From a virus: DNA of 35,273 bases. Made by a program: the position numbers and the translations under genes. The DNA is taken from the IMG/VR virus record IMGVR_UViG_3300025131_000194, positions 1-35,273 of that record; one strand, 5' to 3'. Positions 3,171 to 35,273 of the stretch are shown piece by piece (position 1 is the stretch's first letter; the number at the start of each line of letters is the position of its first letter). The notes under the pieces are model-generated. The model made no database searches. It had not been told where the DNA came from and was given only the letters and a program-made list of their open reading frames with translations.

Positions 3171-3914
3171 ATGGAAAAAGCTAAGAAGAAAATTGTCAAA
3201 ATAAGAAGAAGAAAAAAGGGCGCAAAGAGAAATTTATATTTCCACTCAGGGACTCATGACGCAATTGTTAAATTTCAACAAGAAGAGTTAAATAGTGAAA
3301 AAGAAAAGCTATATGTCACTGATATACTTCCTGCATTTGATAAGCTTGTAGAAAATTTAATATTCATTCACGGATTTAAATCAAGCCACAGCTCATATGA
3401 AGATCTTAAAAGCGACTGTGTAACATTTTTATATGAAACACTTCATAAATTTGACCACAGCAGAGGGACAAAGGCGTTCTCTTACTTTAATGTTGTGGCA
3501 AAAAATTGGCTAATTATCAAAAGCAAACAACGAGCAAAACAAAATAGGCGACAGGTTAGCATAGATGATCCGTTTTCAATTAGTAAAAGGGATATGCGAG
3601 CAATAGAGACATATAAGATAGCACCAGAACAAGATGAGAGAATTTTGAAGAGAGAGTCAATTGAAAATATGTTCTCTCTTATGAAGGAGATAAAGGGAAA
3701 GCTTTCAAGTGAAAATGAAATTGCTTGCATTAATGCAATAATCTGCCTTTTTGAAAAGATTGACGATCTTGATCTGCTTAACAAACGTGCAATATTTGTA
3801 TATCTAAGGGATATATCAAACTTAAATCCAAAGCAGCTTTCAATTGCAATGTCCTCAATAAGAAAGCACTATAAGTCGCTGGTCAAACTAGAGGAGTTTG
3901 ATATATTCTTTTAA
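3171..3914 (+). CDS. 55: Late-transcription sigma factor, T4 gp55-like
   Basis: A 247-residue protein, longer than T4 gp55 (185 residues). It starts with a very basic tract (residues 2-20). The core at about residues 75-125 resembles sigma region 2: SYEDLKSDCVTFLYETL, HKFDHSRGTKAFSYF and VVAKNWLIIK, the aromatic-rich part that binds core RNA polymerase and opens the -10 element. A helical C-terminal half follows and ends in EEFDIFF at the very last residues. T4 gp55 also ends in a hydrophobic-acidic motif that binds the sliding clamp, so this tail is a good candidate for the same role. The gene sits directly before a gp33-like candidate and the baseplate genes. Identification rests on pattern recall and context, not on an alignment. 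Confidence 0.8.
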   Translation: MEKAKKKIVKIRRRKKGAKRNLYFHSGTHDAIVKFQQEELNSEKEKLYVTDILPAFDKLVENLIFIHGFKSSHSSYEDLKSDCVTFLYETLHKFDHSRGTKAFSYFNVVAKNWLIIKSKQRAKQNRRQVSIDDPFSISKRDMRAIETYKIAPEQDERILKRESIENMFSLMKEIKGKLSSENEIACINAIICLFEKIDDLDLLNKRAIFVYLRDISNLNPKQLSIAMSSIRKHYKSLVKLEEFDIFF

Positions 3915-7145: not shown

Positions 7146-7619
7146 GTGAGTTCTATAAATTTTAAAAGTTCTGGTGATAGAAGCACTGATGCTAAATTTA
7201 ATAGAGAAGTAGATCCTCAACCGATTGGAATAAAAACACCTCTAAGATTTGGATCTGGAGTATCTGGAATCTTTGATATGCATACAGACATAGGTGATCA
7301 GATTCAGGATAATTTAAAAAATCTAATTTTAACAAATCACGGAGAGAGGCTTGGTATTTATAATTTTGGTGCCAATCTTAGGGAGCTAACTACGGAAAGA
7401 TTGGCAAAAGATGATTTTGATTCTGAAGTGATGAAAAGAATTATGACTGCAGTTGAAAGCTATATGCCCTATATTGAGCTCTCATCATTTGAATCAACAT
7501 TTAGTGATTCACCAACTATAGAATCTATTGCAGAGGTTAGTATTAAGGTGTTTTACAGCGTTCCAAAGCTAGGCCTTTATAATAAGGGAATAGAGATAAT
7601 TTTACATTGTATAGGATAG
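7146..7619 (+). CDS. 25: Baseplate wedge subunit, T4 gp25-like
   Basis: 157 residues; T4 gp25 has 132. The family pattern is clear: an N-terminal stretch leading into TPLRFG, then DIGDQIQDNLKNLILTNHGE, RLGIYNFGANLREL, and a final beta strand region (VSIKVFYSVPKL). In T4 and P2-type tails gp25 sits at the inner baseplate and starts the sheath lattice. The start is GTG at 7146, nine bases after AGAGG (7132-7136). It is followed four bases later by gp6, the standard order of gp25-gp6 (P2 W-J) in contractile tails. Confidence 0.9.
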   Translation: MSSINFKSSGDRSTDAKFNREVDPQPIGIKTPLRFGSGVSGIFDMHTDIGDQIQDNLKNLILTNHGERLGIYNFGANLRELTTERLAKDDFDSEVMKRIMTAVESYMPYIELSSFESTFSDSPTIESIAEVSIKVFYSVPKLGLYNKGIEIILHCIG

Positions 7620-7623
7620 TTTA

Positions 7624-9456
7624 ATGGCAATAAAGACAAAATTAAAAAAGAGCGAATTTAGATCTTATCTAAATAAAGATTTCGAAAGTTTCAGGGCTGA
7701 TCTTGTGTCCTATGCTAGAACTTTTTTCTCTGATAAGATTCAAGATTTCGGAGATGCAACAGTCGGAGGTCTTCTTCTCGATATGAATGCATACGTCGGA
7801 GATGTTATGAGCTACTATCTAGATCATCAGTTTAATGAGCTAGATATTGAAACAGCTGTTGAAGATAGAAACATTCAAAGACTTCTAAGAAATGCCGGTG
7901 TGAAAATAATGGGTGCAACTCCAGCTGTAGCGGATATTGACTTCTATATAAAAGTTGACTCTAATCCCGACGATACATCTCTTCCCATGCACTCCTATCT
8001 TCCCACAATTGTTCAGGGAACCATAGTCAGCTCTACAAATGGTGTTCTATTTACTCTTGCCGACGATATAGACTTTTCTGAAAAAGACTCTGATGGAAAC
8101 TATGCTTTTCAGCAGATTACACCTGCAAATGCATCGAGTCCGCCAAAGCAATATATCTTAAAGAGATCTGGAAGATGTATATCTGGATCTGTATCCAGAA
8201 AGGAATTCAGCATATCAGATAGTTTTGTTCCGTTTAGAAAACTTACTCTAAGTGGTGTAAACATATCAGAAATAATCTATGTAATGGACACAAGGGGAAA
8301 TAAGTACTATGAAGTTGACTCTCTTGTTCAAAATGTAGTATATAAAAGAGTTTCAAATCAGTCATCTGACAGCGTAGATGTTCCTGAAAACTTAGAACTC
8401 CTGCCATGTCCATACAGATATACTGTTCAAAGAGATGTAAATTCAGGAACAACGTCTATAAGATTTGGATCTGGAAGGGCAGACACTCTAGATGACGATA
8501 TTATTCCAGATCCAAGTGAGCTATCACTTCCAATGTATGGAAAAAAGGAGATAAAGAGATTCAGTATTGATCCAAACAACCTTCTAAGAACACAGTCGCT
8601 TGGAATATCACCGATAAATACAACAATACTTGTAGAATACAGACAGGGCGGCGGTCTTTCACATAATGTTTCTGCGGGATCAATAGTGGGAATTAAGACG
8701 CTACACACAGAGTTCAAAGCTAATCTACACGCTTCAGTTAAGACTAGAATTAGGGCATCTGTTGACTGTACAAATCCACAAGCTGCAGCAGGTGGAGAAA
8801 ATCAAGTCTCTCTCGAAGATATGAAAAGGTTACTTGTGTCTGCTAAAAATACACAGTCAAGAATTGTAACAAAGGCTGATTTAATTTCTCATATCTATAT
8901 GATGCCTTCAAGATTTGGAAGAGTCTACAGGGTTGGCGTTAGATCAAATCCAGACAATCCGCTCGCAACTCTTTTATACATTATTAGCAGAGACTCTAGC
9001 GGAAGATTGACAATATCTCCAGACTCTTTAAAAGATAATTTGGCACTATTTCTAAATGAAAATAGATTAATCTCTGATGCAATTGATATCCTTGACTCTC
9101 CAATTGTCCACATTGGAATTAATTATAGCATAGTAGTTAACAATATAGCCAACAAAAAAGCAACAATACTTACCATTAATTCTAAATTAAAGAAATACTT
9201 TAAAGTTGCAAACTTTCAGATAGATCAACCAATAATGACAGGAGACATTCAGAATATCATTTTAAATTCACCAGGGGTTATATCTTTATCTGAGCTTGAT
9301 ATTATAAATCTAAACGGATCAAAAGACGGAAGAGTTTACAGTGATATCATATTCAACATAGATCAAAACACATATAAGGGTATTATCTCTCCAGAGCCTG
9401 GTGGAATTTTTGAGATAAGATATCCTGATCTTGACATAACAGGTGTTGCAGAATAG
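7624..9456 (+). CDS. 6: Baseplate wedge subunit, T4 gp6-like (baseplate J family)
   Basis: 610 residues against 660 in T4 gp6. The N-terminus has the expected helical opening (FESFRADLVSYARTFF) and GGLLLDMNAYVGDVMSYYLD, followed by a segment, EDRNIQRLLRNAG, that marks baseplate J/gp6 proteins. Central beta-rich domains follow, and a C-terminal segment with GDIQNIILNSPGVISLSELD, typical of the gp6 dimerisation end. In the T4 wedge two gp6 copies clasp one gp7. It lies between gp25 and the DNRLRE-like and gp7/gpI-like genes. Confidence 0.9.
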   Translation: MAIKTKLKKSEFRSYLNKDFESFRADLVSYARTFFSDKIQDFGDATVGGLLLDMNAYVGDVMSYYLDHQFNELDIETAVEDRNIQRLLRNAGVKIMGATPAVADIDFYIKVDSNPDDTSLPMHSYLPTIVQGTIVSSTNGVLFTLADDIDFSEKDSDGNYAFQQITPANASSPPKQYILKRSGRCISGSVSRKEFSISDSFVPFRKLTLSGVNISEIIYVMDTRGNKYYEVDSLVQNVVYKRVSNQSSDSVDVPENLELLPCPYRYTVQRDVNSGTTSIRFGSGRADTLDDDIIPDPSELSLPMYGKKEIKRFSIDPNNLLRTQSLGISPINTTILVEYRQGGGLSHNVSAGSIVGIKTLHTEFKANLHASVKTRIRASVDCTNPQAAAGGENQVSLEDMKRLLVSAKNTQSRIVTKADLISHIYMMPSRFGRVYRVGVRSNPDNPLATLLYIISRDSSGRLTISPDSLKDNLALFLNENRLISDAIDILDSPIVHIGINYSIVVNNIANKKATILTINSKLKKYFKVANFQIDQPIMTGDIQNIILNSPGVISLSELDIINLNGSKDGRVYSDIIFNIDQNTYKGIISPEPGGIFEIRYPDLDITGVAE

Positions 9457-9464
9457 GTGAAAAA

Positions 9465-11003
9465 ATGTATAGAATATTAACAGCAAGCAAAGACACGTAT
9501 ATTACAAATAAAGTTATAAACAATGACTTCAGAGCTACAGATGCAAATGTTGGGCTTGCTGGCACACTTGATCTATTTAAACTATATGGTGAATCTACAT
9601 CCGGATCAAATACAACACCGAAAGAGCTTTCTAGGATCTTAATACAGTTTGACCTAGACCCGCTTAGAGCAATGACAGGATCGATTTTAGATATAAACCA
9701 CTCATCTTTTAAGTGCTTTCTCAAGCTTTCAGATGTATATGGGGGACAGACGACACCTTCTAACTTTAATGTTCTTGTTGCTCCGTTGTCAAAATCTTTT
9801 GACGAAGGTGTGGGAAAAGATATTATTTCATTTTCCGACATTGACTCTTGTAACTTTATTACAGCATCTGTCTCAGGTCAATCACCCACTCTATGGACTT
9901 TTACGGGATCAAATAAAGAGGGTCTTTTAGGAAGTCCTGATATAGACATTATTACATCTGGAAACTTGAACGATGGAAATGGTGTAGGATTTCTCTGGAA
10001 GTCACAGCTATTTGAGTCGGGCGACGAGGATCTTAATGTTGATGTGACAGCAATTGTCTCTGGTGTTCTAGCTAATCAAATACCTGATTGTGGATTTAGA
10101 ATTTCACTTAGTGGATCTGAAGAGACAGATGAGAAGACAAGATTTGTCAAAAGATTTGCATCTAGACATGCAACCACAGTTGAAAACAGACCAAGACTAA
10201 TAGTTCACTATAACGATGCACAACAAGATCATCATGAAAATTTCTTCTTTAATCTTACGGGATCTATTTTTCTAAATAATTTTCACAGAGGGCATCCTGC
10301 ACATATTCTTGATGGAAGAACAGGAAATGAAATAAAGGGTGCAAATTGCATAGTTCTAAGAGTAGAATCGGGCTCTCATGACAGAGGGACGTTTTTTACA
10401 ACATCTGTCACAGCATCTCAGCACAAGATAGGATTAAACTATATAACTGGGGTTTATTCAGCAACATTTGCAATAGGTGAATTTTCATCCGGAACTCTTA
10501 GGAATGAAATAGTTAATGCTGCTTCTGCAACCTTTAATACATACTGGGGAAGTACAGACTACAAGCTTGGCTTTCACACTGGATCTTTAATGGTCAATAC
10601 TGTTAAAAGAACTAGCTTTGATAATGCAACTGATAAGTTCTATCTAAACATTACAAACCTAAAGTCAAGGTATAGATCATTTGAGAAAACAAAGCTAAGA
10701 GTTTTTGTTGAAAATCTAGGAAGAGAGGTTATCTTTAAAAAATCACCAATTGAATCAAAAAGTGAAATATTTTCAAAAATGCACTACAGAATCAGAGATG
10801 CCCTAGACGGAAGAATAATAGTTCCTTTTGACAGGGCATATAAGGGAACTTTACTATCTACAGATTCTGATGGAATGTTTTTTGACTTTTACATGGAGTC
10901 TCTACCGACAGGAAGAACATACGTTTTTGACTTTTTAATTGAAGAGTTTGGTGTCGATAGAGTCTTTACAAATGTTGGATCTAAATTTAGGGTAGATGAA
11001 TAA
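9465..11003 (+). CDS. Virion protein with a DNRLRE-like domain
   Basis: 512 residues. The first 250 match the outline of the DNRLRE domain, found in surface-attached and carbohydrate-linked proteins: SKDTYITN near the start, an ANVG loop, LSRILIQFDL, then DVTAIVSGVL and finally RFASRHA and RPRLIVHY. The rest is beta-rich with repeated TGS/SGS turns and no family I recognise. ATG 9465 follows AGGTGA (9455-9460), which overlaps the gp6 stop. Its stop overlaps the start of the wedge protein (TAATG). Placement between gp6 and the gp7/gpI-like gene suggests it is a baseplate component, perhaps a connector or surface-binding arm. Confidence 0.65.
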   Translation: MYRILTASKDTYITNKVINNDFRATDANVGLAGTLDLFKLYGESTSGSNTTPKELSRILIQFDLDPLRAMTGSILDINHSSFKCFLKLSDVYGGQTTPSNFNVLVAPLSKSFDEGVGKDIISFSDIDSCNFITASVSGQSPTLWTFTGSNKEGLLGSPDIDIITSGNLNDGNGVGFLWKSQLFESGDEDLNVDVTAIVSGVLANQIPDCGFRISLSGSEETDEKTRFVKRFASRHATTVENRPRLIVHYNDAQQDHHENFFFNLTGSIFLNNFHRGHPAHILDGRTGNEIKGANCIVLRVESGSHDRGTFFTTSVTASQHKIGLNYITGVYSATFAIGEFSSGTLRNEIVNAASATFNTYWGSTDYKLGFHTGSLMVNTVKRTSFDNATDKFYLNITNLKSRYRSFEKTKLRVFVENLGREVIFKKSPIESKSEIFSKMHYRIRDALDGRIIVPFDRAYKGTLLSTDSDGMFFDFYMESLPTGRTYVFDFLIEEFGVDRVFTNVGSKFRVDE

Positions 11004-14000
11004 TGTCAAATGATAGAGTTCTTGTACAGTTCAAGCCTAGACTGTTTACCCCCACTGTTGTAAGGGGAATTCAAGACAATGGCTCTAGAACAAGAGAGAC
11101 ATCTCTATTTGAAGTAGCAGACTCCAATATTGAAAGTACTTCTTCATTTAGATATAGTGTACCTGGAGATGGAATAAAATCAACACAGCAGCTTAATGTT
11201 GACTGGTCTAGCTTTGAAAATCACACATTCTTTAACTCTGCTGTCTCTAAGGTAAATGTTGCATTTGATAAAATTGTAAATGAATTTCCATTTGATGGCA
11301 CCAATAGAGAAGTAGAGATGTATCTCGACTCTTTGACAGGATACGAAAACTATGTTCTTCAGCAATTTCCTAAGAATGTGGGATATCTTAATTTTCATGG
11401 AAGTAGCACAGCAGCCCTGGATCAGGGAATCCATATAAAGGTCAGAGATCAGGCGGGAAGCTTATATCCGCAATTTTCAAATCTTTCCACAGGCGAGAAG
11501 GTTCTAGATCCTGGAACAGATTCTTTTTCGATTGAGATGCAGCTCTTATCTGCAGCAGCCACAAATAACCCACAGGTCATATGTCAGAGATTACAGTCTG
11601 ACAGCTATGGATTTGGACTCTTTCTAGCTTCAAGTTCGTCAACATCAAATGTTGATTTGATATTCTCTGTTGCATCTGGCTCTACTTCTCTAATAGCTTC
11701 AGGAACCATTCAAAAGGGATCTTTTGAGCATGTATGCGCTGTATATGACAGGACAGAAGGTGTTAATAAACTTAGGCTGTATGTTAATGAATCCCAAGTG
11801 GGTGAATCAGATGGAGAAGTTGAGACAGGAAAGCTAGGCTTTACACCCGCAACTTTGTTTACAATCGGTACAGGGTCCATTCAACATCTTAGCGGAACAG
11901 ACGGAGGAAGTGCTTCAGAGTGGAAATTTACGCCACTAGAGACATTTTCAGGATCAATTGATGAATTTAGATTCTTTCACTCTGTTAGAGTTCTAGATGA
12001 TCAAGAAGAATATGCAACAAAAACAATCTACGCATCTGACGATCTTAAGCTTTACTTTAAATTTAACGAACCAAGTGGCTCAACAGGTATCAACGATGTT
12101 GTCCTGGACAGCTCTGGTAAGTCACTTCACTCAAGAATATCCAACTACTATAGCCTAAGCTCCGATATAGCTCTAAGAAGCACTAGCTCATTCTATGGAT
12201 CAGAAATAAAGTCTCCCATACTGTATGAAAATACAGAGCTATCTCCTGTCCTATTTCCTAAGTTTGCAAAGGTGACAGCACTCAACAGGGCACTTCTTCA
12301 CTCTGCAAGCTCTTATGATAAAATTAATCCAAACATGATCACAAAGCTTGTTCCCACTCACTATCTTGAAGAAGGGCAATACTTTCAAGGATTTAGGTCA
12401 ATAGATGGTGATATTGCTAATGACTATTCCGGATCATCTCTTCCTGGATCTGGTGAGCTAGGCACAGCACAACTCCTGTCTGCAATGCTGTTTATATACG
12501 CCAAACAATTTGATGAACTAAAGCTCATTATTGATGAAGTTTCAGAGCTAGTTCATGTTGATTACGATGGAGAAGACTCTGTCTCTGATCCTTTCCTGCT
12601 ATTTACAGCAAAATATATGGGAATTCAATTACCAAAAATATTCTCAGATGCAAGCCTTCAACAACAGGTTGCAGGAGAAAATCTCACACTCGACCCATCA
12701 AGATCAGGGGGTTCATTAAACTATATTCAGAACCAAGTGTGGAGAAGAATTCTAACAAATATGGGAGAAATTACAAAATCTAGAGGAACAATCCATAGTG
12801 TTAAGTCTCTTATACGGTCTATGGGAATTGAGCCAGACGGTCTGTTGCGGATAAGAGAGTACGGAGGTCCATCCAAGAAGACTTTGAGAAATCTTCGCGT
12901 AAAGAAAGCTGAAGTTTCAACGATGATAGATTTTTCAGGATCCTTTAAGTCAATCGGGGACTGGTCAATTGACATTCCAAACTATACACTAAGTGACCAG
13001 GGATTTCCTACAGGATCTCACAAGGTTCCGCGGATTATGTCTCCATATCTTAGTGCAAGTAGATTCGAAAGAGGTTATCCAAAAGTTCAAGGAAATATGA
13101 TCTTAAAGCATCCTGAATATTCATCAAGACCATCTGAGCCAAAGTCGGGATCACTCTTTAATCATAACGTCCACGGAATTTCAAATCAAAAAAATGACGG
13201 ACTATTTACATCGGGGTCGTGGACATATGAGGGAATATATCAAATTCCATCTCTGATAACCGGCTCTCATTTCTTGACACAAAGCCTTGTAAGGCTTCAA
13301 GTTACCGGATCAAATAGTGTATCAAAGAGTCATGGACTTGTTTTTAATCTTGTATCTTATTCCGGATCTAACAGGGTTGAGCTTTTTGGAAGACCTGGCT
13401 TAGATGCAAGCATTGTAACATCTCCAGAAATGAGACTTGTCCTAACAGGGCCGGATATCTATGATGGAAATTTATGGAATATTTGCTTTGGAAGATATCG
13501 ATCTGACGATCCAGTCTCAGGAAGCGGTCACAACTTAACATCTTCATTCTTCCTAAGGTGTTCTAGGCAGAACTATGGCGAAATAAAGGAGTACTTTACA
13601 ACTTCAAGCCTATTTGCTGCATCTTCTTTAAATAGTGCATTAACAACGGGAGGTTCTCAGCAGGTTGTTTCCGCAAGAAACACAGACGGAATGTTTGTTG
13701 TTATTGGATCTCAAAGCATTAATACAAATGGAAGTATATTTTTAAACTCCAAGACTCTTTTACCTGATGCTACCTATGGAGCTGCAAGGTCGACAAACTT
13801 TTCAGGAAGAGTCGGTCACATAAGGTTCTGGTCTAAGGGATTGACTGAGACTGAGTTTAAGGAGCATACTAGAAACTTTAAATCTCTGGGAGTTGATAAT
13901 CCAAAAGTTAACTTTAACTTTGATAGAATATCAACAGGATCATTTGAAAGACTAAGGCTTGACGCAACATCAGATCAACCAGTAACTAACTCTAATTCAC

Positions 14001-14743
14001 TAGGTGATATTGATATTACAGACTTTTCACAACAATATGTCTTCGGAAAGACTACAAGACCGTGGGAGTTTGTTGAAAAGTATGGGGGAGAAAGAGGAAG
14101 TGAAAGAAGATATTTCAACATGTCTGGATCTGGATTTGAGACAAGTAAGAGAGTAATTATACCTCATACATTTTACTATAGCTATCTTTCTCCAAGATTT
14201 GACATGCTTGAATCTGATGAAAAAGTCAGGATTAGAAGCTATATCTCTGACGACAGGGTTGAAGATAGTGACTATTCGTATAAGGCACCACTCTATGCTA
14301 TTCCTAGAGATGATATCCCAAAAGATGATACAAGGTTCTCAGTTGACTTCTCTGTTGTTCAGGCTCTAAATGAGGATATTATGACAATATTCTCATCTTT
14401 GGATTTCTTTGATAATGCTCTTGGTGATCCGAACTTAATGTTTGATGAATACTATCCAGATCTAGAGCAATTAAGAAAGATTTATTTTAACAGACTTGTT
14501 GATAAACTTAATATTAAGCAATTTTTTGAATTCTTTAAGTGGTTTGATAATACGATGGGACTTATGATAGAGCAACTAATTCCAAAAAAGACTACATTTA
14601 ATGGTGTCAATTTTGTTGTTGAGTCCCATGTCTTAGAGCATCATAGGATGAGATACCTATCGGATGAAATTTATTTAAAACTTTCTGAAAGAGAGCCTAG
14701 CTTTTATGACCTCTCTTCTAGATTGGATGAGCTGATGGAGTAG
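11003..14743 (+). CDS. Giant baseplate wedge protein, gp7/gpI-like core with two LamG-like domains
   Basis: 1246 residues. Residues 70-130 hold a helical segment with FENHTFFNSA and NEFPFDGT. Residues 170-375 form a LamG/concanavalin-like beta sandwich: FSIEMQLL, FEHVCAVYDR, NKLRLYVNE and FSGSIDEFRFFHSVR. Residues about 495-640 resemble the P2 gpI/T4 gp7 wedge family: FIYAKQFDELKLIIDEV, then RRILTNMGEITKSRGTIHSV and KSLIRSMGIEPDG, with the GT-x-H-S turn before the last helix. A second LamG-like sandwich runs from about 730 to 970 (ending GRVGHIRFWSKGL). The C-terminal 120 residues are helical, ending FYDLSSRLDELME. The order gp25-gp6-(one gene)-this protein mirrors W-J-I of P2. The gp7/gpI reading is from pattern, not alignment; an alternative is a pure adhesin. 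Confidence 0.65.
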   Translation: MSNDRVLVQFKPRLFTPTVVRGIQDNGSRTRETSLFEVADSNIESTSSFRYSVPGDGIKSTQQLNVDWSSFENHTFFNSAVSKVNVAFDKIVNEFPFDGTNREVEMYLDSLTGYENYVLQQFPKNVGYLNFHGSSTAALDQGIHIKVRDQAGSLYPQFSNLSTGEKVLDPGTDSFSIEMQLLSAAATNNPQVICQRLQSDSYGFGLFLASSSSTSNVDLIFSVASGSTSLIASGTIQKGSFEHVCAVYDRTEGVNKLRLYVNESQVGESDGEVETGKLGFTPATLFTIGTGSIQHLSGTDGGSASEWKFTPLETFSGSIDEFRFFHSVRVLDDQEEYATKTIYASDDLKLYFKFNEPSGSTGINDVVLDSSGKSLHSRISNYYSLSSDIALRSTSSFYGSEIKSPILYENTELSPVLFPKFAKVTALNRALLHSASSYDKINPNMITKLVPTHYLEEGQYFQGFRSIDGDIANDYSGSSLPGSGELGTAQLLSAMLFIYAKQFDELKLIIDEVSELVHVDYDGEDSVSDPFLLFTAKYMGIQLPKIFSDASLQQQVAGENLTLDPSRSGGSLNYIQNQVWRRILTNMGEITKSRGTIHSVKSLIRSMGIEPDGLLRIREYGGPSKKTLRNLRVKKAEVSTMIDFSGSFKSIGDWSIDIPNYTLSDQGFPTGSHKVPRIMSPYLSASRFERGYPKVQGNMILKHPEYSSRPSEPKSGSLFNHNVHGISNQKNDGLFTSGSWTYEGIYQIPSLITGSHFLTQSLVRLQVTGSNSVSKSHGLVFNLVSYSGSNRVELFGRPGLDASIVTSPEMRLVLTGPDIYDGNLWNICFGRYRSDDPVSGSGHNLTSSFFLRCSRQNYGEIKEYFTTSSLFAASSLNSALTTGGSQQVVSARNTDGMFVVIGSQSINTNGSIFLNSKTLLPDATYGAARSTNFSGRVGHIRFWSKGLTETEFKEHTRNFKSLGVDNPKVNFNFDRISTGSFERLRLDATSDQPVTNSNSLGDIDITDFSQQYVFGKTTRPWEFVEKYGGERGSERRYFNMSGSGFETSKRVIIPHTFYYSYLSPRFDMLESDEKVRIRSYISDDRVEDSDYSYKAPLYAIPRDDIPKDDTRFSVDFSVVQALNEDIMTIFSSLDFFDNALGDPNLMFDEYYPDLEQLRKIYFNRLVDKLNIKQFFEFFKWFDNTMGLMIEQLIPKKTTFNGVNFVVESHVLEHHRMRYLSDEIYLKLSEREPSFYDLSSRLDELME

Positions 14744-14745
14744 AT

Positions 14746-15711
14746 ATGGCTATTAGACCATTTAAAGATAGATTTGGAAAAGCATCGGCACTAACCGGAT
14801 CTGCAACATCGGGTTTAGGGCCCACTGTTGGCGTTAGTTCGTCATACGATCTAATAAATCAAGCAGCAGGCGGAATGCTTACTGCACCGTTTGATAGATT
14901 TAGACAGGGCGTTAGTGTAGTTTCAAGGAGATATATTAGAAGAGACTCACCTTCAACAGTGAGCATAACAAATAGCACTGCTGTAATTGGATGTCTTCCT
15001 ATACTGACATCAAATGGATTTGATGGAGAAAGGATTAAGGATATTCACGGTGTAGAGGTAAGAGACTTCGGTCAATCAAAATTGTTCAAGGATCATGAGC
15101 CATATGAAGATCTGGCAACAATGAGGATTAGTACAAAGATAGAGTCAAATGTTACCTCTGCGTACGGAGGGGCAATTGCATACATTAACGATTCAGGTAT
15201 GCAACAGTATCCAGTTATTCTCTCCAACGTCTCTATGAAATATCCTGATCAATTTGATGGTGTAATTGAGCCATTCCCAATTAGAGAGGTCATAAGCAAT
15301 AGATCTGCAGAGACGCCGTTTGTTGCCCACAAGATCCGTGCACACATCATGGATGGAAATATTGAAGAGACATATGGATCCGATTCAATTACACAAATAA
15401 TGGCAATAACGGGATCTCATGAAGTTGATCCGTTTATAGATTCTGCTGAAACAGCAATGTCTGATGGGACATTTACTCTTTTTGCACCCGGCTTTACTTC
15501 AGACATAGAGCGCTTATCACCACCGTTCCTCGATCGAGGTTCTCCTGGTGCTGAGGGAAAGGAGAGATTTTGTAAAATTCTTGTGGGTACAGGTTCACTA
15601 AGGGACTTTGGCCTAATTGACTCCCATCATAAGTCTGCAGGATCGGGCTTTACTTATGAAAACAATATAGAGGGAACGGATTCAATAGCATTCGGCGGAT
15701 TGAAAAGATGA
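14746..15711 (+). CDS. Virion structural protein of unknown function
   Basis: 321 residues, no family recognised. The N-terminal 40 residues are Gly/Ser-rich (ALTGSATSGLGPTVG). The rest mixes short strands and loops, with GGAIAYIND near residue 143 and GVIEPFPIREV near residue 170, and no hydrophobic segment or signal peptide. GGAG lies a few bases before ATG 14746, and the end overlaps the next start as ATGA. Its position between two giant LamG-bearing genes and the TGS turns it shares with them suggest a baseplate or fibre-attachment part. Confidence 0.6.
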   Translation: MAIRPFKDRFGKASALTGSATSGLGPTVGVSSSYDLINQAAGGMLTAPFDRFRQGVSVVSRRYIRRDSPSTVSITNSTAVIGCLPILTSNGFDGERIKDIHGVEVRDFGQSKLFKDHEPYEDLATMRISTKIESNVTSAYGGAIAYINDSGMQQYPVILSNVSMKYPDQFDGVIEPFPIREVISNRSAETPFVAHKIRAHIMDGNIEETYGSDSITQIMAITGSHEVDPFIDSAETAMSDGTFTLFAPGFTSDIERLSPPFLDRGSPGAEGKERFCKILVGTGSLRDFGLIDSHHKSAGSGFTYENNIEGTDSIAFGGLKR

Positions 15712-18700
15712 GCGATAATAGACAACTAGGGAATTTCAATAGACCTGTTGAAAATGTTAAAGAGTACCCAGACTTAAGATTAAACTTTACGACACTTGGA
15801 ATAGGGAGGTCAGCTGGAAGACAGGGAAAGACAGATCTTGAGTATGAGATTGGATCATTTCTTTCTGGATGGTGGGACTTTAGAAAGGTTAGTAATACAC
15901 CAACTGCTGTTAACATATACAATGGGGACCATAATGGAACACTTACGGGTGTTTCTAATATTAATCTAGAGTCCGACAATCCGTTTGATGTTAAGGATGG
16001 CCCAGATAGACCAAGACCAAGATCAGCGTCATTTAATGATAGCAGTACTGTGTATCTTATCGATAACGGCTCTGGCGTTGGAGATCCTGAGTATACACCG
16101 TCTGCATCTACGACTCTTGGATTTGCAGTTCAGGCTTGGGTAAATAGAACAGGGGGATCTTCAAATGATGACACAATCCTCTCGCTGGCAAGAAATAATG
16201 GAAATTTACCAACTCAGACAAAAATGGTCTATAGGCTTTATTTTGATGACGGCTCAGACAAGCTAACCTTTAGGCTTTATGAAGGATCTGCGGCACAGAC
16301 AGCTGACTACATAGAGGAAAAAGTGGATTCTACATGGGGACATGATGGGTCTTGGGCACACATACTTCTCTATGTAGATCAGACAGGAGCGGCATCAGAT
16401 CCATCGATAGCAATCTTTGTCAATGGAATTAGGCAATCTTCTACGACAACTAAGAGCAGCTGGGGAGGATTAACGCTACCAAGTCCGCTTCCACCTTTAA
16501 CAATAGGTGCTCAGAGAAATGTAGACGGAGCTGGTAGCTTTAGTTCAAATACATCATTTTTTAAAGGTGAGATGGCTGAAATAGCATTTTGGAAGGATAT
16601 TCCAAAAGGTGGTCGACTTATCAATGAGAATGCAGCTTCAGCACTATATTATGCAAGAAAGGGGTTTTATGCAAATAAGTCAGGAATCTTAAGTGAGCCA
16701 TATAGGCTTGAATTAAGAAGGCGTGACTCTGCTACTGGGTCCTATCCTACGATCAATAGAACTGGCGATAGAACTCGAATGGGAAAATATGGTATTTCAT
16801 TCGATGATAGAAAGACAGTAATCTTTGCAACAGCTCCTGCAGCCTATCCACAAGTCTTAAATTCTGACTCACCAAACTTTATATATCCAACGAGCTCAAT
16901 TGGAACAATTACAAGATCTCTGAGGAAAGGCATATCAGATGCCCGCGTTGAATTTACACCGGGAGAATCACTTGGGCCATATGATGACAGCCTTATAGAC
17001 CATCAAGATACTGACTTCTACATGACAGGAACTAAAAGAGAGATTATGGATGGATTTACATCTCCGCTAAAGAGCAAGACATCCATATTCTTTGATATAA
17101 CTCCCTCCGGTGACGAAGCTGTCCCACTAACACTCACAAGGGCGAATAGGCATAGAAATATTCTCCTTGAACCAAATCTCTCAGATACAAAACTCTCTAA
17201 GACAGGCTTTGCATACTGGAACAATGTTGCTAGAAAGTGGGACCAGATCGGTCTTACTGACCCACTTACAGGTCAGCCCATAAGGTACGACTACGCGATA
17301 AGGGGTGAAACTACAGCAATAAACTCTTGCACATCTGGTACAAATATGTACCCACAGCAATTCGTTCCCTGTAGGCACCAGCTTATTACAGATTCTATCC
17401 TTGACGCTACTAGCTCTCATGATCAAGGGCTAGATCCCTTACTTAAAATGTGCAATTATCATTTTATTGGCTCCCCCACGATTACATCTTTTGCACCCTT
17501 CAAGACAGTATATCACGCAACAAGTAGCAATACGATTAGAATGTCTGACTATATTTCACATCCATTTCTATTGGAGAAAGTTGTTGTCAAAATGGAGGGA
17601 AGGGCACAGAGGGTCCACTCTAAACCCAGGGAGGGATCAGCTAATCGACACCAAGATGACTATGTGTTCTTTATCTATAGACAGGAAAGGGCAAATATAA
17701 GCGGAAGCTTTAGAGGGGGAAGTCCAAACACACCTACACCTTCTAAATCATTCAGGATCGATTCAGCTGCAGATATCTCAGGAAGCCAAAGATTCTTAAT
17801 TTGCAGTGGTGTTATGTCATTCTACAATAAGCATTGCTATACATCAAACGGAAGAGGTCACTATATCTACAGGCCAATTAATTCACCAGCATTCTCACAT
17901 GATTTTGCTGTTGAGCAGGGCCCGACTGGTAGCCAGCTAATCCTTCAGTACACTGGGTCTTTAAACCTAGAGATTCAACCTGCTGTTGCCGGAAGAGGAT
18001 TTAAGGGAACATCTATATTACCAGAGTCATTAATTCAAGCAGATAGGACTACATCAGCACCCAAGGCAGTTTATCACTATTGGCCTGGAGGAACTTCTGT
18101 AAAACCGTTTATGCATGGTGATCGAAGGGCAGGTACAGACTCTTACGATACTATCGAGCCCTCTGAATACACAGGTAAGGTTGGAATTGATGCATCTTAC
18201 GGCGGTGATGACGGATTTACATTTAAGCAATACTATGAGGAGCATGTCGCAGCAGGATCTACCACTGGATTTCCAAATGAAGAATTTGCTACAAGAAATC
18301 TTTCAACTGAGATTGTTGATCCACGAACGCTAAAGCCATTGGGACCGCTTCAATCTTCTAGAACAACGTTTCTGACAAATGCTGCAGCGGAGCAAGGGTG
18401 GGCAACAACCCCAAATGAGAATCAATCAGCAATTTCACCCTACCTTCTCTTTCCTGAAGATGAGATAGTCTTCGGTCTAGAGGCAGCAATAGCTCCCGGA
18501 AACGTCTCTGAGCTAACCGGATCTGGAAATAGCGGAGGTGGGTTCGGCGGACAGAATGCCCTAACGGGTTCTTATCTAGAAATACCTCAGACAAGAAATA
18601 GACACACAATTGTATTCTACGGATCCATGGTGAGGGATGGTGTGGAGCATCATCATTCACTAAATCAACCTCTTTCATCTGATGCTATTCACGAGGCAAT

Positions 18701-19802
18701 ATTTGAACCGATCGTTGATCAGTGGGATATCTCTTCTGAAGCAGCAAATGCAGGAACCTATGTTGACAATTATATTACAGGTGCAATGATAGCAGAGCCG
18801 TGGCCTCATAATAATGCAGCTGATAATGATGGACTGTATTCCCACCTCTCAGAATCTAGAGGAGTTGTTGGAAGCTTTGTAAGGGGAACTGCACCAAATA
18901 GAGCAGGATCATTTCAGAGATCAGTGACACATGTTGACTTCTCTCAGAGATTTTATGATACAATTATGCCAGACATTCAAGAATATGCAAAGAGAGCTGG
19001 CGCTACAATGCTCACATCAGGTTCAGCAGTTCCAGCAATAGTTTTTGATCCGCCTGAGTTCTATATTGAAAGTCACCCACACGGTGAAAGCAATAGGTCA
19101 ACAATGCCATTTCCATATGAAGGAAATCCAGAAAGAAAGCTAGATGATACTACTAGTATGCAGATTGTAGGCAGGGGTGCTGGATTCTCTGGAATGGGAT
19201 TTCTATATGGAAAGAGTTCACAGTTACAGATAAAGCAGCTACTTTTTCAAATAGGATTTAAGGGTGGTGATATTACAACTTACTATACTCCCTGGCACGG
19301 TGCACAGACGTTTGAGTACACAATCAACTCATATGATCACGCACACCCACAGGCTACAGGTTCAACTGGGTTTAGATACGGAATTCAGAACATAGTTCCC
19401 GAATATCCAACAGTAGTTTTTAGAAGAGACAGGTATGGTCAATTTAGAGACATGCTTGAGCAAAGGACTGATGGAAGATTTTATAAGCCAAGATTAGATG
19501 ATAGTGATCTTATTAAAATAGCATCAAAGACTGGCACAAGCAATGCATCTACTGTAGGAGACCCTGTTGTTATATGCAAATTTACTCTTTCTAGTTCAAA
19601 TGAAGAAGTAAGTCCATATTTGACAACATGCTCTAATATGAGCTATGCTGCAACTTCATCTATTCCGTACATGGACGGAGAAATTGTCAATATTACAAAT
19701 CCAACTGAGCTTAAGACTGTTGCTGTTGTAAAAGGAGCTCTTGCAACATCTGTAAGAACCGCAACACAGACACCATCTATAAAGCTTGGTGGAAAATTTT
19801 AG
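15708..19802 (+). CDS. Giant LamG-like virion protein, probable baseplate/fibre adhesin
   Basis: 1364 residues. A LamG/concanavalin-like domain covers about residues 45-300: SGWWDFR, FAVQAWVNRTGG, WAHILLYVDQTG, SIAIFVNG, then GEMAEIAFWKD. The middle is long, beta-rich and without a family I know; it includes Cys, His and Tyr residues unusual among its Ser-rich neighbours. Near the C-terminus is VFRRDRYGQFRDMLEQR followed by SSIPYMDGE; I have the impression that such ends occur in other marine phage virion proteins but cannot verify it. ATG overlaps the previous stop (ATGA). The probable role is contact with cell-surface glycan, inferred from the LamG-like fold. Confidence 0.68.
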   Translation: MSDNRQLGNFNRPVENVKEYPDLRLNFTTLGIGRSAGRQGKTDLEYEIGSFLSGWWDFRKVSNTPTAVNIYNGDHNGTLTGVSNINLESDNPFDVKDGPDRPRPRSASFNDSSTVYLIDNGSGVGDPEYTPSASTTLGFAVQAWVNRTGGSSNDDTILSLARNNGNLPTQTKMVYRLYFDDGSDKLTFRLYEGSAAQTADYIEEKVDSTWGHDGSWAHILLYVDQTGAASDPSIAIFVNGIRQSSTTTKSSWGGLTLPSPLPPLTIGAQRNVDGAGSFSSNTSFFKGEMAEIAFWKDIPKGGRLINENAASALYYARKGFYANKSGILSEPYRLELRRRDSATGSYPTINRTGDRTRMGKYGISFDDRKTVIFATAPAAYPQVLNSDSPNFIYPTSSIGTITRSLRKGISDARVEFTPGESLGPYDDSLIDHQDTDFYMTGTKREIMDGFTSPLKSKTSIFFDITPSGDEAVPLTLTRANRHRNILLEPNLSDTKLSKTGFAYWNNVARKWDQIGLTDPLTGQPIRYDYAIRGETTAINSCTSGTNMYPQQFVPCRHQLITDSILDATSSHDQGLDPLLKMCNYHFIGSPTITSFAPFKTVYHATSSNTIRMSDYISHPFLLEKVVVKMEGRAQRVHSKPREGSANRHQDDYVFFIYRQERANISGSFRGGSPNTPTPSKSFRIDSAADISGSQRFLICSGVMSFYNKHCYTSNGRGHYIYRPINSPAFSHDFAVEQGPTGSQLILQYTGSLNLEIQPAVAGRGFKGTSILPESLIQADRTTSAPKAVYHYWPGGTSVKPFMHGDRRAGTDSYDTIEPSEYTGKVGIDASYGGDDGFTFKQYYEEHVAAGSTTGFPNEEFATRNLSTEIVDPRTLKPLGPLQSSRTTFLTNAAAEQGWATTPNENQSAISPYLLFPEDEIVFGLEAAIAPGNVSELTGSGNSGGGFGGQNALTGSYLEIPQTRNRHTIVFYGSMVRDGVEHHHSLNQPLSSDAIHEAIFEPIVDQWDISSEAANAGTYVDNYITGAMIAEPWPHNNAADNDGLYSHLSESRGVVGSFVRGTAPNRAGSFQRSVTHVDFSQRFYDTIMPDIQEYAKRAGATMLTSGSAVPAIVFDPPEFYIESHPHGESNRSTMPFPYEGNPERKLDDTTSMQIVGRGAGFSGMGFLYGKSSQLQIKQLLFQIGFKGGDITTYYTPWHGAQTFEYTINSYDHAHPQATGSTGFRYGIQNIVPEYPTVVFRRDRYGQFRDMLEQRTDGRFYKPRLDDSDLIKIASKTGTSNASTVGDPVVICKFTLSSSNEEVSPYLTTCSNMSYAATSSIPYMDGEIVNITNPTELKTVAVVKGALATSVRTATQTPSIKLGGKF

Positions 19803-33171: not shown

Positions 33172-35273
33172 ATGTCAATTATTAAAATCACTCCTGACCT
33201 GATTGAGCAAGTTACATTAACGACTCATCCAAAGAGAACATTTGTCTCATCTTCTCAAAAATCACTCCAGGAGATCGAATCCCCTCGGATACCAGGTGGT
33301 AGAGCTCCTCCAACAGGATCAATTGGCCAGGTTAACCTTATGCCAAGAGCCAACACAGTCATTAAGAGTGTTAGGGCATTTGACCCAGAAAGCACAACTT
33401 ACAATGAGGATCAATCATCACTCCTTATCAATCTAAGAGCTGCAGTCGAGGCCACAGCGGCAGGTGAGGTAGATATCCAAGATTATCTCGGTGTCGCTTC
33501 CGCAAACCAGGACTGGTCGAGCGGACACGGCATAGATGAATCAAACCCTCCAGCCAAGGGATACATGGAGGGGGTTAGAAAAGCAAAGCGGCCTATTAAA
33601 AATTCAAAAGCATTTAGTATTACCAGATTTAGACCTCCGTTTCTTTATGAGAACACCGGTTTTTATGCTGCTTCTCCGAGAAATAAGTGGATAGTCCCAC
33701 AGGTCGCTGCTTCTAGCTTTGAGGGAAAGCTTAGATCTGTCAAGGACCAGGTTAGAAATATACTTCTTCCAGCAAATAGGGCTAGGATGAAGAATCCTGA
33801 TTACGCGTATACTAACTACCACAGCTTAAATTTCTTTACAGCGTCCATAAACCAGCAGGCATCTTCCATTGAAGCAGGACACAGTGTGATGTTAAGCTCT
33901 GTCTTGATATATCCTTCTATGACTGGAGCATATGAGACTTCTCCAACTCACTTTACTGGAAGGTACGCTCCCAAAGGTGCATTTACATTTGACTTCTATA
34001 TCAACCCGAGATATACGAATGACCTCTCAAAGGGATTCAAGACAAACGGTCACTTTCAAGCTGGAACAATATATCACATGAGCAGTACGTTTGCTGTCTC
34101 TCTCGTTACAGGGTCAAGTACAGCGGCAAATGGAACAGCTGACGGATATAGAATACTATTACAGCTTTCACAGAGTGCAGATTTTGCACCCTCTAAGTTT
34201 TTATTAACAGCTTCAAGTGATATTCCCATCTATAATGGAGATCTTTCCAGGTATAAGAAGGATCCCTATGATTATGCCTTTCTATCAGCTGATAACTCTC
34301 TTAAGAGAAACCACTGGCATCACGTTGCAATAAGGTGGAGTCCTAAGGTAAATGGCGGCACTGGAAGCTTTGTGATCGATGGAGAGGTCTCTTCTGAGTT
34401 TTCTATTACAGGCTCAGAATCTATTGTCCCAGAAGTTAGCTCCTCAACAGGCAGATCAGCAGCATTTGCCAGTAGAAATCTTGCTGACCCTGATGCCCTC
34501 TTCATAGGAAACTTTTATGAGGGGGCAAACGTATCTGGGTCTGCATCAGCTGGCTCCAATATCTCAAGATTTTTTAATACAAAGGCGAGCTCCATAGAGG
34601 GATTTACTGACCCAGGCCACGGCTTAATAGAACCGGTCCAGTCAAAAGACATGGGAAGGCTTGATCCAGCTGGATTTGCATTTAATCATCCCCTCAACGC
34701 TGAGGTTCATGATCTTAAGATCTACAACTCCTACAGGACGCTGACACAAATCTACACTTCTTCGATTGGAGGGCCAGAGGACTTTACAGACTTGTTGTTT
34801 TATCTTCCTCCGTTTTATATTAATGAGAGAAGAGAGCGTACATTCCTGGTAAATGCTGTTACGGGCGCATATAAGAGCTACTTTAGTGACACTGGTGGAG
34901 GTTCTGGAGAATACTCTGTATCATATCCCATTAGCAACTTTATAGATCCGTTTGTAACAATGCCGTTCAATGCTGGCCTGGCGATGACAGTGGATTCGAC
35001 ACTTATAAACCTAGATACATTCACAAAGGATCTTGTAAATAACATATATCCAAGGCTCTTATTTCTAACAGCATCTTCTGCATGTGATAAGGGTGATAGC
35101 AATCAGACAGATGTGCAGCTAAATCTATCCTCAGGCGTCTCATCGAGAAGAGTTTCAGAGTATCTATTTAACACTGCATCTTTAAGAAAAAGATGTCTTA
35201 CTGTTCTTCCCTGCGATAATGGAAGATTCAATCCAAACTATTCACTTGTGTATACCGGCTCTGAAACATTGCC
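33172..35273 (+). CDS. LamG-like virion protein, 3' end beyond the window
   Basis: The frame is open from ATG 33172 to the window end (700 codons so far), with GGAGG (33159-33163) eight bases before the start. The N-terminus reads DLIEQVTLTTHPKRTFVSSS and then NLMPRANTVIKSVRAFDPES. A LamG/concanavalin-like domain lies at about residues 250-520: GAFTFDFYINPRY, HWHHVAIRWSP, GSFVIDGEVSSEF and finally NAEVHDLKIYNSYRTL. A stretch with FTDLLFYLPPFYINERRERTF follows. It is the third LamG-bearing gene of the window and probably another baseplate or fibre adhesin. The C-terminal part is missing. Confidence 0.72.
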   Translation, partial: MSIIKITPDLIEQVTLTTHPKRTFVSSSQKSLQEIESPRIPGGRAPPTGSIGQVNLMPRANTVIKSVRAFDPESTTYNEDQSSLLINLRAAVEATAAGEVDIQDYLGVASANQDWSSGHGIDESNPPAKGYMEGVRKAKRPIKNSKAFSITRFRPPFLYENTGFYAASPRNKWIVPQVAASSFEGKLRSVKDQVRNILLPANRARMKNPDYAYTNYHSLNFFTASINQQASSIEAGHSVMLSSVLIYPSMTGAYETSPTHFTGRYAPKGAFTFDFYINPRYTNDLSKGFKTNGHFQAGTIYHMSSTFAVSLVTGSSTAANGTADGYRILLQLSQSADFAPSKFLLTASSDIPIYNGDLSRYKKDPYDYAFLSADNSLKRNHWHHVAIRWSPKVNGGTGSFVIDGEVSSEFSITGSESIVPEVSSSTGRSAAFASRNLADPDALFIGNFYEGANVSGSASAGSNISRFFNTKASSIEGFTDPGHGLIEPVQSKDMGRLDPAGFAFNHPLNAEVHDLKIYNSYRTLTQIYTSSIGGPEDFTDLLFYLPPFYINERRERTFLVNAVTGAYKSYFSDTGGGSGEYSVSYPISNFIDPFVTMPFNAGLAMTVDSTLINLDTFTKDLVNNIYPRLLFLTASSACDKGDSNQTDVQLNLSSGVSSRRVSEYLFNTASLRKRCLTVLPCDNGRFNPNYSLVYTGSETL

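Follow-up and report, generated by a model that had tools for sequence, protein, structure and literature searches.

We suggest that a 1246-aa protein encoded in the tail region of the window (the whole stretch of DNA analysed here, 35,273 nucleotides) is most likely an oversized wedge subunit of the gpI/gp7 kind, in which a pair of lectin-like domains is set between the conserved parts (Table 1). It is probable that the gene encodes the gpI/gp7-type (Tri2) subunit of the baseplate wedge of a contractile phage, whose LamG domains most likely form the rim of the baseplate and dock the fibres encoded downstream.

Table 1. Positions in the window of the wedge candidate, its predicted parts and the neighbouring baseplate and tail genes
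Feature	Position	Strand	Basis
gp25-like sheath initiator	7146..7619	+	PF04965 E 4e-5, phrog_43 E 1.5e-4
gp6/gpJ-like wedge protein	7624..9456	+	phrog_6 E 5e-16
512-aa conserved neighbour	9465..11003	+	weak DNRLRE match; found in 30/30 loci, 50% identity
Whole gene, predicted giant gpI/gp7-like wedge protein	11003..14743	+	1246 aa, single open frame
N-terminal helical block, aa 55-128 (DWSSFENHTFFNSA...)	11165..11386	+	mean pairwise identity 63%; helical in model
LamG1 sandwich, aa ~129-380	11387..12142	+	PF13385; whole-model Foldseek; profile match to PTX3
Predicted gpI/gp7-like wedge core, aa 415-645	12245..12937	+	PF09684 34/61; PF21428 7/61; hhalign to P2 gpI
NPNxITKLVPTHYL motif, aa ~441-457	12323..12373	+	at or beside relatives' Gp7_helical matches
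Tail_P2_I-like KGT helix, aa 577-610 (TKSRGTIHSVKSLIRSMG)	12731..12832	+	PF09684 positions 58-91, E 0.11
LamG2 sandwich, aa ~690-1005	13070..14017	+	hhalign to LamG1; beta-rich model segment
C-terminal block, aa 1096-1220 (RFSVDFS...FFEFFKWFDN...IPKKTTFNGVNFVVESH)	14288..14662	+	conserved 56%; hhalign to immuto
Fast-evolving LamG protein, 1364 aa, probable adhesin/fibre	15708..19802	+	PF13385 E 8e-10

The protein and its relatives

The translated gene has no internal stop, and relatives were drawn from the best 80 of 287 matching IMG/VR stretches, which are 40–94% identical to the window protein over most or all of its length. All 80 fetched loci carry the gene as one open frame (three are ended by a contig edge), which rules out a frameshift, pseudogene or artefact. 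A non-redundant set of 61 sequences was used for the family work. The source record is a 35-kb viral fragment; two more distant relatives come from complete genomes, those of Microcystis phage Mel-JY01 and Flavobacterium phage immuto.

The family is widespread in environmental phages and so far unannotated. No PHROGs match was returned for the whole 1246-aa protein, and no wedge protein was found in the PDB, either by phmmer with the protein or by hmmsearch with profiles of its core. This silence of the PDB is uninformative, since a profile of P2 gpI itself has PA0619 as its one clear match there, with gp66 Triplex 2 at E 0.1. Full-length structural matches were obtained among the viral proteins of BFVD, at 15–18% identity. 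Three window-clade relatives (L034, L057 and L069) lie on viral contigs of 190–320 kb, so that some such phages are jumbo-sized. Another, 44% identical (L154, 3001-6492), comes from a contig of 109 kb that binning assigned to Halobacteriovorax sp., which could be a hint of the host or a mis-binned phage.

Two LamG-like sandwiches

With refined boundaries, the protein divides into an N-terminal helical block, which is its best-conserved part, a first sandwich (LamG1), the core, a second sandwich (LamG2) between the core and the C-terminal block, and that block itself. LamG1 is recognised by Pfam as Laminin_G_3 (PF13385) at aa 161–329 (E 7.6e-11, 42.8 bits vs a cut-off of 27.6), and its profile (A1) matches PTX3 with E 2e-4. 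LamG2 gave no Pfam match with the single sequence of the window protein; its profile matches that of LamG1 (hhalign E 6e-5). An AlphaFold2 model of aa 50–1246, built from the 61 sequences (pLDDT 79, pTM 0.61), contains two beta-rich regions with helical regions between and after them. A Foldseek search with this model returned 61 PDB matches at E≤1e-3, and the 50 listed are all LamG/pentraxin/ConA-type folds or bigger proteins containing them. Both predicted sandwiches are thus supported: Pfam recognises LamG1, the profile match to LamG1 speaks for LamG2, and the fold search backs the model as a whole, in agreement with the preliminary description, which had placed one on either side of the core.

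Profiles of the window and Mel-JY01 clades align over aa 420–1216 (E 4e-30), and the N-terminal helical block is common to the Mel-JY01 clade as well (hhalign E 1.3e-5). Against the immuto clade, two blocks are aligned, 423–652 and 1101–1217, the latter with immuto 624–744 (hhalign E 1e-6); core and C-terminal block are spaced by only 10 aa in immuto vs 449 in the window protein. Profile comparison found LamG1 in neither the Mel-JY01 nor the immuto clade and LamG2 not in the immuto clade, so that Mel-JY01 keeps one LamG, and the immuto clade neither. The LamG2 of Mel-JY01 matches the LamG1 of the window clade better than its LamG2. Given this domain content of two distant clades, profile comparison places the LamGs as separable modules, either gained or lost, at the two junctions of a common three-part wedge scaffold.

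Evolutionary pace and the role of the sandwiches

Pace of evolution was measured as the median identity to the window protein or genes over 30 loci. This came to 43% for each LamG, 46% for gp25, 49% for gp6 and for the core, and 50% for the 512-aa protein. The next downstream gene reached 28%, the 1364-aa LamG protein 30% over 48% of its length and the downstream genes overall 25–30%, and the last four genes of the window were not found in the 30 loci. By this measure of identity, the LamGs evolve at the pace of the wedge and the adhesin-like genes further downstream do not, a contrast that favours LamGs with a structural part to play or one in docking fibres. The glycan-binding modules on the baseplate that the preliminary description proposed are not supported in that form, the two LamGs keeping pace with the wedge and not behaving like receptor-binding modules.

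Many LamG folds bind no sugar. If, within a wedge protein, the LamGs were nevertheless true lectins, they would bind a conserved host glycan and give the baseplate an adhesive rim comparable to an "evolved Dit". This reading, which we regard as doubtful though possible, draws on the LamG/pentraxin/CBM40-type folds found by Foldseek and on the carbohydrate-binding modules known from baseplate proteins of lactococcal siphophages (PMC6669499), but the LamGs have diverged no more quickly than the wedge and the immuto clade does without both. A more ambitious version seems to us unlikely: in a widespread lineage of environmental contractile phages, lectins built into the gpI/gp7 wedge itself would turn the baseplate ring into a rim that reads glycans, so that the cell surface is sensed and contraction set off with no fibre needed for the purpose (an "evolved wedge"); if true, it would be the counterpart of the evolved Dit of siphophages. 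Under the preferred rim and docking role, direct binding of host glycans by the LamGs is possible as a function secondary to docking.

A core resembling gpI and gp7

The core is conserved in 61/61 non-redundant sequences and contains the two motifs that had been quoted in support of a gpI/gp7 likeness, AKQFDELKLIIDEV (~aa 500–513) and SRGTIHSVKSLIRSMG (~aa 593–608). When the 61 cores were scanned against Pfam, Tail_P2_I (PF09684) was the commonest family (34 cores, best E 5e-4) and Gp7_helical (PF21428) the second (seven cores at E≤1, best 1.4e-3), the matches to each being weak in single core sequences. The PF09684 matches of the relatives fall on the same family positions as the KGT helix of the window protein. 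The window core itself scores 12.8 bits against PF09684, under the curated Pfam cut-off of 20.6, and the relative L069 scores 14.8 bits by hmmscan, reaching 20.8 only together with in-frame neighbours. For PF21428, none of 25 records searched gave a match over the cut-off (27 bits), and of the five matches in genomes, one is in a different frame. In T4 gp7, Gp7_helical occupies 643–689; the correspondence of the NPNxITKLVPTHYL motif to DPDLRPL..MMPDSYLL was drawn by eye.

Profile-profile comparison points more firmly to P2 gpI. The hhalign score against it was 28.6 for the window clade, 27.9 for Mel-JY01 and 29.5 for the combined profile, and in each of these three tests none of 300 column-shuffled profiles reached the observed value (maximum 23.9), which is why we take the gpI-like similarity to exceed chance. 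Reversed profiles scored 11–16, and the control pair of P2 gpI vs T4 gp7 gave 15.7. The aligned segment comprises an LPxLA-like stretch and the KGT helix, in register. Alignments to T4 gp7 were weak or out of register, that of the window clade not being in register. No wedge family was found in a Pfam scan of two immuto-clade cores, and a PHROGs scan of the core gave scattered families only. Modelled alone, the core folded poorly (pLDDT 66), and Foldseek with that model returned no wedge protein at significance, the best such match being a 1031-aa chain from the baseplate of a T4-like Klebsiella phage (E 9). We conclude that the gpI/gp7 likeness of the core, as read from family profiles, is supported but remote: the match proposed in the preliminary description is clear at the level of the family profile (0/300 shuffles) but borderline overall, the window protein taken singly staying below the cut-off and the core-only fold search, made with a poor model, being uninformative.

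Gene order and the sole candidate

The preliminary description had placed the gene after gp25 and gp6 with one gene intervening, and the matches of its neighbours to PF04965, phrog_43 and phrog_6 bear this out. The order gp25 – gp6 – 512-aa gene – wedge candidate is kept in nearly all of the 80 loci. Mel-JY01 and immuto have a similar order, in which the relative follows closely on gp25 and gp6. The Mel-JY01 counterpart of the 512-aa neighbour matches CBM96.

Searched with the PF09684 profile, 16 of 30 related phage records gave one match each (E≤1), always in the large frame of the wedge candidate; they span two distant clades, that of the window and that of Mel-JY01, which includes LR756508. 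Nowhere in the 30 records, among them immuto (160 kb), Mel-JY01 (190 kb) and LR756508 (484 kb), did PF09684 match any other gene, so that no second gpI-like gene of the kind that would have told against the preliminary description turned up in them.

These results bear on the idea that the protein is a separate peripheral platform of the baseplate or its adhesins, the true gpI being unrecognised (the 512-aa neighbour, for example) and the KGT helix convergent. One gene does lie between gp6 and the wedge candidate, the window core is under the Pfam cut-off and its fold search gave nothing significant, but a profile match that is in register and outscores every shuffle for each of two distant clades, the confinement of PF09684 to this one gene across the 30 records, and the weak resemblance of the 512-aa neighbour to a beta-sandwich (DNRLRE) instead make this improbable. 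A receptor-binding tail fibre or depolymerase, with LamGs as host-range domains and a gpI likeness due to a chance motif, would suit a large, LamG-rich protein of the tail region, but is very improbable and disfavoured by the shuffle-tested match to P2 gpI and the identity comparison over 30 loci, where conservation of the core and of the C-terminal block equals that of the wedge and the strongly varying, host-range-like genes are those downstream.

Other genes of the window were noted in passing. Two adjacent GT4-type glycosyltransferase genes (Glycos_transf_1; 421-2855) lie upstream of the baseplate genes and recur in ~25 of 30 related loci at 53–61% identity; glycosylation of the virion or of the receptor is possible. 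A 247-aa gene (3171-3914), conserved in most loci, has a weak likeness to late sigma factors (phrog_234 E 0.005; Sigma70_r2 E 0.02). Besides the 1364-aa LamG protein, which scores above the Pfam cut-off, a further LamG-containing protein is encoded downstream, of 700 aa (33172-35271), and falls just below it.

Proposed arrangement in the baseplate

The wedge scaffold would consist of the N-terminal helical block, the gpI-like core with its KGT helix and the C-terminal block, and, by analogy, each wedge would join it to a pair of the gp6-like proteins encoded upstream. The two LamG sandwiches, one at either junction between these parts, would project from the wedge, form the rim of the baseplate and dock the fast-evolving adhesin or fibre proteins encoded just downstream. 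We infer wedge stoichiometry, LamG placement and fibre docking from known baseplates, and favour the docking or rim role because of the precedents of XM1 gp17, A-1(L) and T4 gp7. In XM1, an insert and the C-terminus of gp17 hold the tail spikes (PMC10457771), and in A-1(L) an insertion domain of the wedge (gp31) and a C-terminal loop of gp32 hold the long fibre (PMC10966104).

A large family whose members are at present listed as hypothetical proteins (287 IMG/VR stretches and the Mel-JY01 and immuto clades) would thereby gain a likely function, and phages of all three clades their missing wedge subunit. The choice between fibre docking and glycan binding by sandwiches on the wedge also becomes open to test.

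Comparison with known systems

A literature search for LamG in the baseplate wedge returned no relevant paper; a giant gp7 is already known from T4, but the papers covered by that search describe no wedge subunit with LamG modules. T4 gp7, the wedge initiator, has 1032 aa and three peripheral domains (PMC3004832), as well as an fn3-like N-terminus according to Pfam, so that giant decorated wedge proteins have precedent, and the earlier picture of a universal wedge subunit turned giant becomes less striking. Like the window protein, T4 gp7 is a giant multi-domain wedge protein encoded after gp6, with non-core domains before its helical core, and some relatives of the window protein match Gp7_helical weakly; it differs in having the fn3-like N-terminus and domains V/VI where the window protein has LamGs. 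Members of the P2 gpI family (PF09684 Tail_P2_I; R2 pyocin Tri2 PA0619; XM1 gp17) share the KGT helix and the LPxLA-like segment in register, a gene near those of gp25 and gp6/gpJ and the status of single candidate in the genome. They are, however, of 176–242 aa vs 1246 aa here, and in the window protein a LamG separates the core from the C-terminal block. The "evolved Dit" of lactococcal 936/P335 siphophages is alike in having sandwich modules inserted into a universal baseplate protein, but its carrier is Dit, in non-contractile tails, and no homology is claimed.

The closest parallels are two unannotated proteins. WWT39511.1 of Mel-JY01 (1336 aa) shares the N-terminal helical block, core, one LamG and C-terminal block, but is without LamG1 and differs in its first 250 aa and in its C-terminal extension. 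Immuto gp109 (YP_010114574.1, 1265 aa) has a homologous core and C-terminal block and the same place in the gene order, but neither LamG was detected in it and it carries a long unrelated C-terminal extension. With two, one or no LamG, these proteins would be natural variants showing that a wedge core can gain or lose beta-sandwich modules, always at the same junctions.
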